Origin: Pseudoruegeria sp. HB172150
Lineage (GTDB): Bacteria > Pseudomonadota > Alphaproteobacteria > Rhodobacterales > Rhodobacteraceae
DNA: 64,000 nt
Assembly (NCBI RefSeq): GCF_013184805.1
Contig: NZ_JAATNG010000004.1
Location: 283,423-347,422 of the forward strand
Reading direction: 5' to 3'
Position 1 is the first letter of the stretch. The number at the start of each line of letters is the position of its first letter. The translations under genes were made by a program, and so were the position numbers. Below the pieces are notes generated by a model, which saw nothing but the letters and a program-made list of their open reading frames with translations, was not told where the DNA came from and made no database searches. Positions 13,738 through 62,792 of the stretch are shown piece after piece.

Positions 13738-13790
13738 GGGGGGCTTTGCCCCCCAGACCCCCCAGGATACTTTTGACCAGAAGAAGCAGG
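13738..13790 (+). repeat. Dispersed hairpin repeat, copy a
   Basis: GGGGGG-CTTTG-CCCCCC hairpin (13738-13754), then GGATAC at 13765-13770, TTTT, and GACCAGAAGAAGCAG at 13775-13789. Four further copies lie at 48159-48216, 56292-56327, 56441-56476 (inverted) and 62711-62766 (inverted). In every case the repeat lies downstream of a gene and reads in the same direction as that gene. Confidence 0.75.
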
Positions 13791-13819
13791 CGGTGATTTG
13801 TCTTGGGCGCAACGCTTGC

Positions 13820-44883: not shown

Positions 44884-45016
44884 GGCGTGTCGTCGTCCTT
44901 TTCGGAACGCTGCGCAGAATGCGCGTCAGCGGTTTACATTACGTGAAGATTCGCGTTTTGTTCGGTTTCTACTAAAACTTGAGTCAACTTCACATCGCTT
45001 TGAGGAATCACGGTAA

Positions 45017-45586
45017 ATGGGCGAGCGGTGCAGCTGGTGCGGCGAAGATCCGCTTTACGTGGCCTATCACGATACCGAGTGGGGCGTGCCCGAATACGAT
45101 AGCCGGGCGCTATGGGAGAAGCTGATTCTGGATGGTTTTCAGGCGGGCCTTGCCTGGATCACGATCCTGCGGAAGCGCGAGAATTTCCGGCAGGCTTTCG
45201 GCGGCTTCGACCCCGCCGTGATCGCGGATTGGGACGAGACCGAGGTGCTGCGGCTTCTGGCCGACGAGGGGATCGTGCGCCACCGCGGCAAGATCGAGGC
45301 GACCATCGGCAATGCCCGCGCCTTTCAGGAGATCGAGGCGCGCGAGGGGTTCTCAAGCTTTCTGTGGGACAGGGTCGGCGGCGCGCCGATCCAGAACCGG
45401 TTCACCGGAATGGATCAGGTCCCGGCGGAAACGCCATTGTCAAAGCAGATATCCAAGGATCTCAAGGCCGCGGGTTTCAGGTTCTGCGGGCCGACCATCG
45501 TCTACGCCTGGATGCAGGCCTGCGGCATGGTGAACGACCACATGGTCACCTGCCCGCGCCACGACGCGGTGGCTGCGATGGCGTGA
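45017..45586 (+). CDS. tag: DNA-3-methyladenine glycosylase I
   Basis: 189 residues. Typical Tag features: zinc ligands Cys5 (ERCSWCGEDP) and C-terminal CPRH, with WGVPEYDSRALWEKLILDGFQAGLAWITILRKRENFR in the middle and PTIVYAWMQACGMVNDHMVTCPRH at the end. Excises 3-methyladenine from alkylated DNA in the base-excision pathway. Divergent from the EAL gene. Confidence 0.95.
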   Translation: MGERCSWCGEDPLYVAYHDTEWGVPEYDSRALWEKLILDGFQAGLAWITILRKRENFRQAFGGFDPAVIADWDETEVLRLLADEGIVRHRGKIEATIGNARAFQEIEAREGFSSFLWDRVGGAPIQNRFTGMDQVPAETPLSKQISKDLKAAGFRFCGPTIVYAWMQACGMVNDHMVTCPRHDAVAAMA

Positions 45587-45617
45587 CGGCTGGTCGGGAT
45601 ATGGACTGTCCCCACCC

Positions 45618-45677
45618 TAGGTTAGCGCTAACGCGCCTGAAATCAATGACTTGACCCCCCGTCCCCATGGGGACGCC
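45618..45677 (+). repeat. 60-bp double-palindrome repeat, copy 1
   Basis: Starts TAG, GTTAGCGCTAAC (perfect 12-bp palindrome, 45621-45632), 7 variable bases, AAATCAATG, 2 variable bases, TTGACCCCCC, then GTCCCCATGGGGAC (perfect 14-bp palindrome, 45661-45674) and GCC. It lies between the tag stop and the stop codon of the TlpA-like gene. Copy 2 is the inverted equivalent at 49026-49085: 51 of 60 positions identical without a gap. The 12-bp palindrome resembles LacI-family operators. Confidence 0.85.
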
Positions 45678-46240
45678 TACCTTCCGGCCCCTTCCAGCAT
45701 CGCCTCGAACAGCTTGAAGGCCTCCTCGCTCGCCCAGTCCGCATCCCCCCGCAGCCGGGCGATCTCGTTCCCCTCCGGATCCACCACGATACTGATCGGC
45801 AGGGCCAGCACCGCCATCTGCCGCGCCAGCTGCTGCTTCGGATCGCGATAGAGCGGCAGGTTCTCGACCCCCACCTCCTCGAAGAACCGCTTCATCGCCG
45901 GCACCGGGTTCCGCCCCGTCGCGATGGTCACCACCTGGAAGTCATCCCCGCCGAATTTCTCCTGCAGCGCCGCCAGTGACGGCATCTCCAGCCGGCACGG
46001 CGCGCACCACGTGGCCCAGAAATTCACCAGCAGGTACTTCCCCTCGAACTGGCCGAAATCCACCGGGCTGTCGGCCTCGTCCACGAACCCCACCTCCGGC
46101 AGCGCCTCCGCTTCCGCGAAGACCAGCTTCCGCATGTCGCCTTCCCGCATCTCCTCCAGCGCCGAGATATCCGCCGCCCCGGCGGCGTTTGCAGTGAGAC
46201 CAAGGCAGGTGTAGAGGACGGCGAACCGGAACCAGCGCAT
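45677..46240 (-). CDS. TlpA-like thiol:disulfide oxidoreductase (periplasmic)
   Basis: 187 residues from the ATG at 46240. Signal peptide about 1-22 (ANAAGAAD), then a thioredoxin fold with the redox pair WCAPC at about 78-82 ([20 protein letters not shown]) and a cis-Pro region LPISIVVD. Likely reduces periplasmic cysteines, for example in cytochrome c assembly. Divergent from argH with only 28 bp between start codons. Divergence of TlpA and ArgH is a common alphaproteobacterial arrangement. Confidence 0.88.
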
Positions 46241-46268
46241 GAATATTTTCCCTCCGAAGGGCAGCCAG

Positions 46269-47660
46269 ATGAACGACAAGAGCTCGAACGCCATGTGGGG
46301 CGGACGCTTCGCCGCCGGACCAGACGCGATCATGGAGGCGATCAACGCCTCGATCGGGTTCGACAAGCGGCTCGCCGCCCAGGACATTCAGGGCTCCCGC
46401 GCCCACGCCGCCATGCTGGCCGCGCAGGGCATCCTCACCGATAAAGATGCCGAGGCGATCCGGGAAGGGCTTCTCACGGTCTTGTCAGAAATCGAGGCCG
46501 GGACGTTCGAATTTTCGACCGCGCTGGAAGACATCCACATGAACGTCGAGGCCCGGCTGAAAGAGCTGATCGGCGAACCCGCCGGCCGCCTGCACACAGC
46601 CCGGTCGCGGAACGACCAGGTAGCCCTGGATTTCCGCATGTGGGTCCGCGACCAGTGCGACGCGGCGATGGAGGGGCTGCGGGCGCTGATGCAGGCGCTG
46701 CTGGCGCAGGCCGAGGCGGGCGCGGACTGGGTGATGCCCGGCTTCACCCACCTCCAGACGGCGCAGCCGGTGACCTGGGGCCATCACATGATGGCCTATG
46801 TCGAGATGTTCGGCCGCGACCTGTCGCGGTTCCGCGACGCCCGCGTCCGGATGAACGAAAGCCCGCTGGGCGCCGCGGCTCTGGCCGGCACATCCTTCCC
46901 GATCGACCGGCACATGACGGCTGAGACGCTGAAGTTCGACCGGCCGTCGGCCAATTCCCTCGACGCGGTGGCGGACCGGGATTTTGCGCTGGAATTCCTG
47001 GCGGCCTCTTCTATCTGCGCCATGCATCTCAGCCGCTTCGCCGAGGAACTGGTGATCTGGTCTTCCGCGCAGTTCCGGTTCGTGGCGCTGTCGGACCGGT
47101 TTTCTACCGGCTCCTCTATCATGCCGCAGAAGAAAAACCCCGACGCCGCCGAGCTGATCCGCGCCAAGATCGGGCGGATCCTCGGGACGATGGTGGCGCT
47201 GTTCACCGTGATGAAGGGGTTGCCGCTGACCTATTCCAAGGACATGCAGGAGGACAAGGAGCAGGTCTTCGACGCCGCCGACAACCTGATGCTGGCGCTG
47301 GCTGCAATGGAAGGGATGGTGCGCGACATGACGGCCAACCGTGCGAACCTGGAGGCGGCGGCGTCCTCCGGCTTCTCCACCGCGACGGATCTCGCCGACT
47401 GGCTGGTGCGGGAGCTGGACCTGCCGTTCCGCGAGGCGCATCATGTCACCGGGGCGCTGGTCGCGCTGGCCGAGACCAAAGGCTGCGACCTGCCAGATCT
47501 ATCGCTGGAGGAGATGCAGGGCGTGCATGAGGCGATCACCGACGGGGTCTATGATGTGCTTGGCGTGCACAACTCCGTCGCCAGCCGGGTGAGCTATGGC
47601 GGCACGGCGCCCGATGAGGTGCGCAAGCAGGTCGCTCGCTGGAAGGAGCTTCTGGGATGA
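46269..47660 (+). CDS. argH: Argininosuccinate lyase
   Basis: 463 residues from [14 protein letters not shown] (46269); an in-frame ATG at 46239 adds ten non-conserved residues. Signature [12 protein letters not shown] (about 287-298), SNDQVA-like [17 protein letters not shown], and [15 protein letters not shown]. Last step of arginine synthesis, releasing fumarate. The next small gene overlaps its stop (ATGA). Confidence 0.97.
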
Positions 47661-47794
47661 GATGGCTTTGGCTGCTGACCGCCGCGCTGCTGATGACCGC
47701 CTGCGGTGTCGACGGGCCGCCGGCGCCGCCGGGATCTGAAATCGATCCGCGCACCAGCAGCGCCGACGATGTCGATCCGGACGGGTTCTTCTGA
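47657..47794 (+). CDS. Small LptM/YifL-like lipoprotein
   Basis: 45 residues too short for many gene callers: [20 protein letters not shown], with a lipobox LMTAC and predicted lipidated Cys16, then [25 protein letters not shown]. Size, lipobox and location directly after argH match the YifL/LptM family, whose E. coli member helps mature the LptDE complex and lies near the lysA/dapF genes. The start overlaps the argH stop. LysA is absent here, since the next gene is a membrane protein. Confidence 0.72.
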
Positions 47795-47798
47795 GGTG

Positions 47799-48116
47799 AT
47801 GTCGGGGCTGCGCGTTCTGTACCTGGCGCTGGCGATCTGGGGCGCGGTGCATCCGATGCTCTGGTTCGTGCGCTTCTGGAGTGCGGAGGGGTTCTCGCTG
47901 TCCGGGCTGATCGCGGCCTGGCATGTGAACGCGGCCAGCACCGGGCTGGTCTGGGACCTGACGATCGCGGCGATTGCCCTGACCGTGTGGATTCTGGCGG
48001 AGACCTGGGTGCGGAAGAACTGGTCGGCGCTCTGGGCGATCCCGGCGACATTCTGTATCGGGGTGAGCTGCGGGCTGCCGTTGTATCTTTTCCTGCGGGC
48101 CCGGCCGGTGACCTGA
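47799..48116 (+). CDS. DUF2834-like small membrane protein
   Basis: 105 residues with three hydrophobic segments (about 5-22, 50-70, 78-98) separated by short loops: SGLRVLYLALAIWGAVHPMLWFVRFW, GLVWDLTIAAIALTVWILAE, SALWAIPATFCIGVSCGLPLYLFLRARP. The pattern corresponds to DUF2834, function unknown. An AGGTG site directly precedes the ATG, 5 bp after the lipoprotein stop, so it belongs to the argH operon. Confidence 0.8.
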   Translation: MSGLRVLYLALAIWGAVHPMLWFVRFWSAEGFSLSGLIAAWHVNAASTGLVWDLTIAAIALTVWILAETWVRKNWSALWAIPATFCIGVSCGLPLYLFLRARPVT

Positions 48117-48158
48117 TCGGGCGCCTGCGGCGCAAGCTTTCTGGCACTTCGTGCGGGT

Positions 48159-48216
48159 GGGGGCTCTGCCCCCGTCGCTTCGCGACTCCCCCGGGATATT
48201 TCCGGCCAGGAGAAGG
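48159..48216 (+). repeat. Dispersed hairpin repeat, copy b (double hairpin terminator)
   Basis: Hairpin GGGGGC-TCT-GCCCCC (48159-48173), then GTCGC-TTC-GCGAC (48174-48186), then the repeat core GGGATATTTCC (48193-48203) and GGCCAGGAGAAGG (48204-48216). It follows the last gene of the argH operon; the minus-strand amidotransferase gene ends just beyond, at 48219. Confidence 0.75.
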
Positions 48217-48218
48217 GG

Positions 48219-48953
48219 TCAGCCGTAGCGCGCGACGAAGTTCTTCAGGATCTTCTCGGGCGCGTGGACGTCGGCGGCGTCGACCATGGCGTGGAGGCTG
48301 TCGGCCTCTTCGGGGGCGAAGTAGCCACGGTGCCTGTAGATGTCGATGCGGATGTGGAAGACCGAGGCGTCTGCCTCGGGGTGGAACTGCGTGGCGTAGA
48401 CGTTGCTGCCGTGGCGGATCATCTGGAACGGGCAGGGACCGGAGGCGAGGAGGTGGGCGGCGCCGGGCGGCAGGTCCTGGGCCGCTTCCTTGTGGCCGAC
48501 GAAGGCGTCGAATCTGGCGGGGAGGCCGGCCAGGAGCGGGTCGGTCCCGCCGGCGTCCGTGACCTCGCAGCGGGAGGTGCCGACGGGCTCGCCGTAGCGG
48601 GCCTTGGAGACGGTGCCGCCGAGGTGGTGGGCGAGGATGCCGATGCCGTAGCAGCAGCCGAGGAAGGGCAGGTCGCGGGCGGTGATCTCGGGCATCAGCG
48701 AGAGGATCGCGGCTTCGATGCGGGCCTCGGCGGGGTCCTTGGTCTCGGGCGGGTCGGAGACGCAGCCGGGGCCGCCGCCGACGATGGTGCCGGCGTAGTC
48801 GTCGAGGTTCAGGTCGGCGGGGAGGGGACCGGCGTCGAGGCGGATGCGGCGGGTCTGTGCCTCGGTCAGGCCGCCCTTGTCGAGGAAGGCCTGGTATTCG
48901 TTGTCGGAGGCCTCGGTCTCGGGGCGGAGCTGGAGGATCAGGAAGGGCTTCAT
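48219..48953 (-). CDS. Class I glutamine amidotransferase domain protein
   Basis: 244 residues. The nucleophile elbow is FLGCCYGIGILAHHLGG (Cys near 100), where the usual G-C-x-G is GCCYG. The catalytic His is in YATQFHPEADA (about 191) with Glu two residues later. The N-terminal GGGPGCVSDPPET forms the oxyanion region. It belongs to the stand-alone GATase1 group whose members act on gamma-glutamyl or related amides; no synthetase partner is next to it. Copy 2 of the 60-bp repeat lies 73 bp before its start. Confidence 0.86.
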   Translation of the reverse strand: MKPFLILQLRPETEASDNEYQAFLDKGGLTEAQTRRIRLDAGPLPADLNLDDYAGTIVGGGPGCVSDPPETKDPAEARIEAAILSLMPEITARDLPFLGCCYGIGILAHHLGGTVSKARYGEPVGTSRCEVTDAGGTDPLLAGLPARFDAFVGHKEAAQDLPPGAAHLLASGPCPFQMIRHGSNVYATQFHPEADASVFHIRIDIYRHRGYFAPEEADSLHAMVDAADVHAPEKILKNFVARYG

Positions 48954-49025
48954 CAGGCGGGTCCGGGCGGCGGCGGCGTCGGGACCTGATGGCGGATGGG
49001 GGCGGGTTGGTCAATGGGCTGGCGG

Positions 49026-49085
49026 GGCGTCCCCATGGGGACGGGGGGTCAACCCATTGATTTTGTTCATGTTAGCGCAAACCTA
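49026..49085 (-). repeat. 60-bp double-palindrome repeat, copy 2 (inverted)
   Basis: Reverse complement of copy 1, in the same order of elements: GTTTGCGCTAAC, spacer, AAATCAATG, TTGACCCCCC, GTCCCCATGGGGAC, GCC. The 12-bp palindrome has one mismatch here; the 14-bp one is perfect (49029-49042). The two copies bracket 3.35 kb containing the TlpA-like, argH, lipoprotein, DUF2834 and amidotransferase genes. Confidence 0.85.
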
Positions 49086-49111
49086 TGGCTGCGGACGGCC
49101 AGCCGGTCGGG

Positions 49112-51205
49112 TCAGGCCGACCTGCGCGCTGCTTCGTCCCAGTCGTCGTCTTCGGCGTCGTCGCCGCCGAGGGTGAACTGCTCGGTGCTGGCGGACAGGT
49201 TTTCCACCTCGCGCTTGAGCGACTGCGTGGCGGCGGTGGTTTCCTGGAACATAGCTGCGTTCTGCTGGGTGACCTGATCGAGCTGGCTGGCGGCGGAGTT
49301 GATGTCGTCGAGCCCCTGAGACTGTTCCTGCGCGGCGCTGGCGAGGCCGGCGACCTTGCCGCGGATATCCTCGACATATTGGGCGATCTGTTCCAGCGCG
49401 CTGCCGGAAGCGTCGACCAGGCCGACGCCATTCTGGATCAGGCCGGAGGTGGTGCGGATCAGGTCGGCGATCTCCTGCGAGGCCTCGGAGGAGCGCTGTG
49501 CGAGCTGCCGGACCTCGGAGGCGACAACGGCGAAGCCGCGGCCGGTCTCGCCGGCGCGGGCAGCCTCGACCCCGGCATTCAGGGCCAGGAGATTGGTCTG
49601 GAAAGCCAGCGAGTCGATCACGTCGGTAATGTTCGACACCTTCTTGGAGCTTTCCTCGATCTCGTTCATCGCGGCGACGGCCTTGCGGACGGTGTCGAGC
49701 CCGGACCGGGTGCTTTCTTCGGCCGAATTGGCGGTATTGGCGGCGGATTCCGCGCTTTGCGCCGCGGTGCGGACGGATTCGGCCATCTGGTCGAGGGCGG
49801 CGGCGGTTTCCTCCAACGTCGCGGCCTGTCGTTCGGTGCGCATGCTCAGGTCGTCGGCACCGGCCTCGATCTGCGAGGCGTCAGAGAGGATGCGGCCTGT
49901 GCGCTCGGCGATGCCGGCGATGACGCCGCAGAGCAGGGTCAGCGAATGGTTGAACTCGGATTTCAGCCCTTCGAATTCCGGGGGAACATCCTTGGAGATC
50001 CGGATCGAGAGATCGCTGGCCGCCAGCCGGGACATCGCCTGGCGGAAGGCAAGGATGGCATGCTTGGCGCCGGTGATGTCGGTCGCGAATTTCTCGACCC
50101 GCGTGACATAGCCGTCGGCATCGACGATCGGGTTGTAGGATGCCTGAATCCAGACTTCGCGCCCGCCCTTGCCGATGCGGCGATACTCTGCCGCCTGGTA
50201 TTCGCCGTCTCTGAGCTTGTCCCAGAACGCCGCGTATTCGGGGCTGGCCGCCTCTTCCGGGTCGATGAAGATGCTATGATGCTTGCCGATGATCTCGTCC
50301 AGCTCATAGCCCATTGCATCGAGGAAGTTCCGGTTCGCCCGCAGGATCGTGCCGTCGGGCTCGAACGCGATGGTTGCCTGCGAGCGGTTCAGCGCCTCGA
50401 GCCGGGCGCCGTCGTCGAGGGACTGCTGCTTTGCTTCTGTCACGTCGTTGGCGAATTTGACCACACCCACGACATTTCCCTTTGAATCCGAGATCGGGTT
50501 GTAGGTGGCGCGCAGCCAGATCGTGGTGCCGGACTTGCTGTAGCGGCGATAGGCGCCGGACTGGTATTCGCCGCGCGCCAGCGCCTGCCAGAAATCCGCG
50601 TATTCCGGAGTGCCCGCCGTCTTCTCGCCGACGAAGATGCTGTGATGCTTTCCCCGGACCTCTTCCAGAGAATAGCCGACCGTATCGAGGAAATTCCTGT
50701 TCGCGGTGACGATGGTGCCGTCGGTCCTGAACTCGATCACCGCCTGCGAGCGGTTGATCGCTTCCAGCCGGCTTTTGGAATCGGCGGCATCCTCTGCCTG
50801 CTGGGTGACGTCGCGGGCGAATTTCACCACCTTGCGGGTCTGGCCCGCCGCGTCGAGGATCGGCACATAGGAGGCGCGGATCCAGACGGTTCGGCCGGTT
50901 TTCGACACGCGGGGATAGACATCGGTGAAGGATTCGCCGGCTTTCAGGCGCGTCCAGAACTCGCGGTAATCCTCGCCTTCGGCGAAGTCCTTTTCGACGA
51001 AAATGGCATGTCGCTTGCCGACAATCTCCTGCCGGTCATATCCCATGACCCTGCAGAAATTCTCGTTCGCTTCGAGGATCTCGCCCTCCGGCGTGAACCA
51101 GATGACGGCCATATGCGCATTTACCGCGGCGGAAAGATCGTCATTGTCGCTGTTACGCTTGGCATCGGTCCTGAAGGCCATGGGCAGTTGTCCAACCAGG
51201 TTCAT
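49112..51205 (-). CDS. Soluble methyl-accepting chemotaxis protein with three tandem PAS domains
   Basis: 697 residues without transmembrane helices. Three PAS units at about 30-145, 145-268 and 268-390: [48 protein letters not shown] and [25 protein letters not shown] short HAMP-like region (about 400-445) leads to a receptor signalling domain with the tip [43 protein letters not shown]. The C-terminal DDWDEAA resembles CheR tethers. It would relay cytosolic redox or ligand cues to CheA; ligand unknown. PAS 2 and 3 are near duplicates. Confidence 0.93.
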
Positions 51206-62710: not shown

Positions 62711-62766
62711 CCCCTGCTTCTTCTGGTCAAAAATATCCCGGGGTGCGCGAGGGGCTGGCCCCTCGC
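62711..62766 (-). repeat. Dispersed hairpin repeat, copy e, inside the ABC operon
   Basis: On the minus strand: hairpin GCGAGGGGC-CA-GCCCCTCGC (62766-62747), then CCCCGGGATATTTTT, then GACCAGAAGAAGCAGGGG. It separates the MalF-type and MalG-type genes; the AGGGG end lies about 8 bp before the MalG-type ATG and may serve as its Shine-Dalgarno sequence. Confidence 0.75.
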
Positions 62767-62792
62767 TCCCGCACGTGCCGTTTGCACCGCGC

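Follow-up and report, generated by a model that had tools for sequence, protein, structure and literature searches.

The two 60-bp inverted repeats beside argH in the 64,000-nt window of Pseudoruegeria sp. HB172150 analysed here (own genome, G000; congeners, G001 to G004) are members of a dispersed element of about 70 copies that lie mostly just past gene ends. Our favoured reading, to which we give about an even chance, is that of a palindromic element bent by integration host factor (IHF) at the ends of transcription units, which would work like the RIB/BIME-1 elements of Escherichia coli without belonging to them. The first-pass annotation had described the repeats as a pair bracketing the argH block. 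Copy 1 (45618-45677, plus strand) and copy 2 (49026-49085, minus strand) do match without gaps at 51 of 60 positions, as our recount bore out, and they share an identical 24-mer, TTGACCCCCCGTCCCCATGGGGAC, with no match in 100 shuffled windows. The search for further copies proposed in that annotation, run over the whole own genome, returned the 24-mer at 60 places (28 forward and 32 reverse, up to 3 mismatches; reversed control 0) and the 14-base palindrome GTCCCCATGGGGAC alone at 74 sites (up to 1 mismatch; reversed control 1). Therefore, the two copies belong to a genome-wide dispersed family and do not form a pair. In a BLAST search with copy 1, 40 of 77 first-look candidates were scored, and all 40 aligned over about 59 bases or more. 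An Rfam scan of window positions 45000-50000 gave only weak, unrelated matches under the gathering scores, no match to a consensus copy turned up among plasmids or phages, and searches of open-licence papers showed no description of this element.

The element is about 65 bp long. Its left edge lies beyond the start noted earlier, at a GTCCCCA or GTCCGCA box, and toward the palindrome it comprises this GTCCNCA (distal) box, site A (the GTTWGCGCTAAC motif), a linker, WATCAANNNNTTR, a C run, GTCCCCATGGGGAC and GC(C/T). From the sequence, the two window copies contain:

45608-45614, plus strand: copy 1, distal half-site box GTCCCCA
45621-45632, plus strand: copy 1, site A, GTTAGCGCTAAC
45641-45653, plus strand: copy 1, IHF consensus match AATCAATGACTTG (consensus of PMC3281130 and PMC5896051)
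45661-45674, plus strand: copy 1, terminal palindrome GTCCCCATGGGGAC; the stop codon of the tlpA-like gene starts 2 nt on
49090-49096, minus strand: copy 2, distal box GTCCGCA
49071-49082, minus strand: copy 2, site A, GTTTGCGCTAAC
49050-49062, minus strand: copy 2, IHF consensus match AATCAATGGGTTG, counted among the strict matches
49029-49042, minus strand: copy 2, terminal palindrome GTCCCCATGGGGAC, facing the GATase gene start 75 nt off

The own set comprises 71 of the 74 palindrome sites (3 were not fetched), 60 of them designated type a; a filter for the CA/TT core of the IHF match removed none of the 71. Among the type-a copies, 56 of 60 have a GTCCNCA box, which in 52 of these stands 5-7 bp before the GTTWGCGCTAAC motif, and 58 of 60 have, in their distal part, the half-word of the palindrome (GTCC or GGAC), compared with a shuffled mean of 13.6. 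The box is mostly a half-site, as the full GTCC-N6-GGAC occurs in 1 of 60 own and 8 of 84 G001 copies; an exact GTCCCCA opposite the terminal TGGGGAC is present in 34 of the 60 own copies, one of them at unusual spacing. The motif GTT(A/T)NCGNTANC is found in fixed register at -40, and the IHF consensus, likewise in fixed register, 8-20 bp from the palindrome. Outside type a, the linker of 7 own sites resembles TTGAAAGGC; 4 others (L238, L240, L242 and L244) combine the same palindrome with an AT-rich upstream part that lacks site A but keeps CAR-N4-TTR. The AT-rich part of these four holds GGTTAA or GTTAA, and some copies of this class, read in the host gene's sense, give GGCGTCCCCATGGGGACGCC followed by TTT and thus resemble an intrinsic terminator.

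Site A had been taken for a palindrome kept as such. Its sequence is conserved, but its symmetry is not: the variants GTTTGCGCTAAC and GTTAGCGCTAAC account for 33 and 17 type-a copies, and perfect palindromes number only 17 among the 60 own type-a copies and 1 among the 84 G001 copies in register. This weighs against a dispersed operator of a LacI-type regulator at GTTAGCGCTAAC, an option raised earlier, although the core of that motif resembles LacI-family operators. Since site A, in the element copies examined, also sits at fixed spacing inside a larger element, mostly by stop codons, we regard such an operator as highly improbable.

The element core is likely an IHF binding site. The IHF consensus is WATCAANNNNTTR in PMC3281130 and PMC5896051; in Table 2 of PMC6907758 it stands in the row for H-NS, which we take as a slip. 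The block AAATCAATG, noted already in the first-pass annotation, contains a full match when TTG is added. A strict WATCARNNNNTTR occurs at fixed register in 59 of 60 own type-a copies, where the search pattern contained TTR and not WATCAR, and core CA and TT stand in register (one-base shift allowed) in all 71 own palindrome sites fetched. G001 carries the same architecture with another palindrome, and its copies were gathered by that palindrome alone; CARNNNNTTR is present in 78 and the strict WATCARNNNNTTR at fixed register in 25 of its 89 full windows, against background rates per position of 0.0005 and 0.00004, respectively. The 5′ side of the core is AT-rich (73% vs 27% in the flank in G001, 57% vs 34% in the own genome), which is common at IHF sites.

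Genes were called from codon usage by a simple program. By these calls, 51 of 71 own and 66 of 90 G001 copies turn their palindrome toward the 3′ end of a gene, and in 45 and 56 of them, respectively, it is at most 23 nt from the stop codon. Between tandem genes, it points toward the 3′ end in 48 cases vs 24 (p = 0.006). The site A side is at most 23 nt from a gene end in only 2 of 40 own and 3 of 41 G001 cases, and the distal-box edge, among the 60 own 24-mer copies, in 7 of 35. At one locus of the metagenome-assembled genome (MAG) Ww612 (L106), the reading frame, judged by eye, continues into the element and stops inside it.

Such positions would also suit an RNA hairpin directly past the stop codon, acting as terminator, mRNA stabiliser or ribosome-stalling structure, and repetitive extragenic palindromic (REP) sequences of E. 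coli are reported as 3′-end RNA hairpins of this sort. The palindrome follows the stop by 1-23 nt in most host genes, and the own copies reading GGCGTCCCCATGGGGACGCC-TTT in the gene's sense fit as well. Yet the main class has no U-run, neither window copy has a terminator-like site, the G001 palindrome offers a certain stem of only 4 bp, and about one quarter of the copies have no gene end on the palindrome side. Strict constraint also applies to columns that no hairpin would include, those of the IHF match and of site A. Among the top 40 column pairs, no strong covariation was seen beyond near neighbours, neither long-range nor otherwise; a DNA-protein site therefore explains the element better than an RNA fold, and we consider the hairpin quite unlikely.

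The G001 form was first met at ispG, gatB and one further gene. Its palindrome, GTCCAACCTYGGAC, has 90 sites in G001 and none in G000, G002, G003 or G004. All 90 were fetched, giving 89 distinct full windows, of which the 84 with GTTA at -40 were profiled; the other 5 were out of register or degenerate. The profile reads GTTASCGSTANC at -40 to -29, A at -25, RA at -22, CAR at -17, CTTR at -11, the palindrome at 0-13 and then RCY. At the columns chosen as free, G001 copies are 43% identical to one another while the motif columns are nearly invariant, which indicates continuing strong constraint and upholds the earlier view that kept blocks with varying spacers reflect constraint. Likeness among the own type-a copies at these columns reaches 87%, which points to recent homogenisation or expansion. 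Within each genome the palindrome is uniform: left-half matches near fetched G001 elements run into the G001 palindrome in 75 of 75 cases (3 out of register), and own left-half matches into the own palindrome in 49 of 49 (5 with 1-2 changes).

Some of these sites are shared between the two genomes. A flanking gene is common, at more than 60% identity, to 21 own and 22 G001 elements, and 16 palindrome-facing 3′ ends are common to both, compared with 0.69 expected (p ~1e-18, assuming 4,900 genes). In 7 of 13 shared 3′ ends the distance from stop to palindrome differs by at most 2 nt. Copy 2 is among the shared places, with its palindrome toward the gene start in both genomes; copy 1 is not. At 16 comparable shared places, the elements are 61.7% alike vs 60.0% for random own-G001 pairs (permutation p 0.35), and likeness within genomes is 92.8% (own) and 73.3% (G001). 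How scattered sites, uniform within a genome and wholly different in a congener, change in step is a puzzle. We tentatively suggest, at clearly less than an even chance, that on the line to G001 about 90 scattered palindrome words, some at shared gene ends, were replaced together, GTCCCCATGGGGAC giving way to GTCCAACCTYGGAC, with the IHF site and site A kept and drift continuing at other bases. The palindrome would then be a lineage-specific address word in a genome-wide nucleoprotein code under concerted evolution, for which either a co-evolving binding protein or copying restricted to the palindrome would be responsible; by parsimony, the G001 palindrome would be the derived word.

The genes around the two window copies are:

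45017-45586, plus strand: methyladenine glycosylase gene (tag), convergent with the tlpA-like gene
45677-46387, minus strand: thioredoxin/TlpA-like gene, host of copy 1, its 3′ end facing the palindrome
48219-48953, minus strand: GATase gene, its start faced by the palindrome of copy 2
49112-51205, minus strand: methyl-accepting chemotaxis protein gene with PAS domains, upstream of copy 2, its stop on the distal-box side

The order and orientation of tlpA, argH, DUF2834 and GATase genes are unchanged in G001, G002, G003 and G004, all without copy 1; tag is in place in G001, G002 and G004, and was not found beside tlpA in G003. Five genes flanked by two inverted copies had suggested the boundary of an inversion or of a mobile block carrying argH. 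Because the gene order is unchanged in congeners without copy 1, and with the 60 copies occurring in both orientations, this can practically be dismissed. Absence from relatives with intact argH synteny, which the first-pass annotation had named as telling against its proposal, is indeed what we see for copy 1; the family is untouched by it. A counterpart of copy 2 lies between the same two genes in G001 (GTCCAACCTTGGAC, L278), while copy 1 has none; thus, the two copies are independent.

The convergent stops of tag and the tlpA-like gene are 4 bp apart in G001, G002 and G004 compared with 90 bp including copy 1 here, and the L063 site is near-gapless in G002, G001 and G004 (0, 2 and 0 bp, respectively); at some other own sites the congener gaps are long and filled by different sequence. 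Such empty sites agree with a selfish miniature mobile element, similar to a miniature inverted-repeat transposable element or a REPIN, which would be moved in trans by a putative IHF-needing recombinase, with palindrome and distal box as its ends and the 3′ bias reflecting tolerated insertions. The own copies, 93% alike on average, suggest recent copying, the distribution among family genomes is spotty, and bacterial transposable elements often contain IHF sites according to PMC5896051. An end-to-end fold of copy 1, in which GTCCCCA pairs with TGGGGAC, has z scores of -2.2 and -2.8 for its two strands, but copy 2 gives no such fold and the two copies fold differently. Against mobility, PF01797 (RAYT/Y1 transposase) was absent from G000-G004, Frigidibacter sp. 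ROC022 (G367) and the 77% complete MAG Ww612 (G402), with 1 match in G108; no target-site duplication was noticed by eye relative to the empty sites; and no split or longer parent copy appeared among the matches listed (39 of 57 places in one search), a check that covered element matches only, no search for a transposase with the same ends having been made. Moreover, G001 copies 43% identical at free columns with invariant motifs need continuing constraint. We judge a mobile element to be less likely than not.

For the favoured IHF-bent element at transcription-unit ends, the following course of events may be envisaged. IHF would bind the centre of the element and introduce a sharp bend, which would bring site A and the distal GTCC box round to the palindrome, where a putative palindrome-binding protein would hold the loop. 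The complex would mark the 3′ end of the transcription unit, where it would either help to halt RNA polymerase or confine the supercoils that transcription drives. The partner protein may set the palindrome sequence, which would explain why the palindrome is uniform in a genome and differs between lineages with the IHF frame kept. We infer the bend, the looped complex, the boundary or termination role, the partner and the mechanism of spreading from sequence. Among the options raised earlier, a nucleoid or chromosome-organisation element comes closest to this reading.

Several observations weigh against it. In 20 of 71 own and 23 of 90 G001 copies the palindrome points toward a gene start, as it does at window copy 2; one further G001 copy is undecided. 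Where a start is faced, it is 48-149 nt away in 17 of 19 cases. Divergent genes flank 4 own and 10 G001 copies. Neither copy 1 nor copy 2 showed a site scored as terminator-like. The strict IHF consensus is kept in only 25 of 89 G001 copies, a motif look over the fetched loci (no genome search was made) found no IHF genes, and we assume the presence of IHF in the own genome from general knowledge. The palindrome-binding partner is hypothetical, and the family is rare and therefore dispensable.

Enterobacteria are known to have palindromic repeats that bind IHF at the ends of transcription units; to our knowledge, the role of these has stayed open. Among them, RIB/RIP elements are BIME-1 of E. 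coli (Boccard and Prentki 1993). Both these and the element here are dispersed in tens of copies, have palindromic ends with an IHF-binding sequence between them (here a consensus match only) and are placed at 3′ ends of transcription units (here as a bias and not for every copy). GTCCCCATGGGGAC and GTCCAACCTYGGAC are, as we take it, unlike the enterobacterial REP consensus. In BIME-1/RIB, two opposed REPs enclose a sequence that interacts with IHF (PMC2817692), whereas the element here combines a single strict 14-bp palindrome with a degenerate box at the distal end and has a further fixed motif (GTTASCGSTANC); no RAYT was found for it, and its palindrome differs between congeners. As REP consensus and RAYT are absent, we do not count it as a member.

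With REPINs and RAYTs (PMC3116915) it shares the short extragenic palindromic repeats, and the lineage-tied palindrome recalls RAYT-REP co-evolution; in contrast, no Y1/RAYT was found here in the carriers tested except G108, there is no GTAG/GGAG tag, and a single strict palindrome replaces their doublet. The CGTC-tagged REPs (PMC3733652) are likewise alphaproteobacterial, mostly downstream of genes and without a dedicated transposase found, but the element fits neither their unpaired CGTC tag and stem of 8-9 bp beginning with A and T nor their 4-5 base loop and mostly CCA tail. QMITE1 of Coxiella (PMC5896051) is also a dispersed repeat with a conserved IHF consensus, but its length is about 400 bp, and it has direct repeats besides a terminal inverted repeat of 21 bp. 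Integron attC, dif and CtrA sites were considered and dropped, as the fixed frame with its IHF core fits none of them, and so were DNA uptake sequences, for which the frame is unfit and the copy number far too low. The element appears to be an independent alphaproteobacterial design with a strict frame and about 70-90 copies, seemingly missing from other congeners and with its palindrome swapped between two of them, a combination that makes function and spread testable.

The 24-mer was found in 4 of 394 family genomes. The left half including TTGACCCC, with at most 2 mismatches allowed, had any match in 39 of 394 and more than 2 matches only in G000 (59), G402 (20) and G108 (5); its reversed control gave scattered matches, up to 3 per genome. 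These surveys give minimum counts, because the TTGRCCCC form is matched by only 9 of the 90 copies in G001. G002-G004 had no match in the searches made in them. On viral contigs, 3 matches to the palindrome-side pattern were found, none with the left motif, and the full frame was not found. The own palindrome also occurs in Frigidibacter, MAG Ww612 and G108. Left-half places fetched from the latter two end in GTCCCC(A/G)TGGGGAC in 6 of 6 cases, three of which (L326, L330 and L331) lie outside the palindrome matches listed. In Frigidibacter the left part differs, with a GTCCNCA box at -42 to -45 replacing site A in 15 of 18 rows; one of the 3 other rows ends at a contig end.

Some host genes recur among the carriers. 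The hslU 3′ end carries the element in the own genome, G001, MAG Ww612 and G108 (where its final residues served to name the gene by eye); G108 and MAG Ww612 have one other 3′ end with the element in common. A dinB-like (DNA polymerase IV) gene, named by eye, has it at its start region in the own genome, G108 and Frigidibacter, and the element thus lies upstream of this gene in three genera (L077, L139 and L118). The gatB gene of Frigidibacter was dropped as a carrier, its 3′ end being 1.8 kb from the element. Downstream of gatB in G004 (L172) and G002 (L176), several copies of a GTGCGCATTCATGCGCAC-type palindrome were observed, possibly a dispersed repeat of their own at the same gene end. 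Finally, window positions 13760-13819, 48159-48218 and 62733-62792 look alike by eye after gene ends (CTTCTCCTGGCCGGAAATATCCCGGGG and variants) and probably represent another extragenic repeat.

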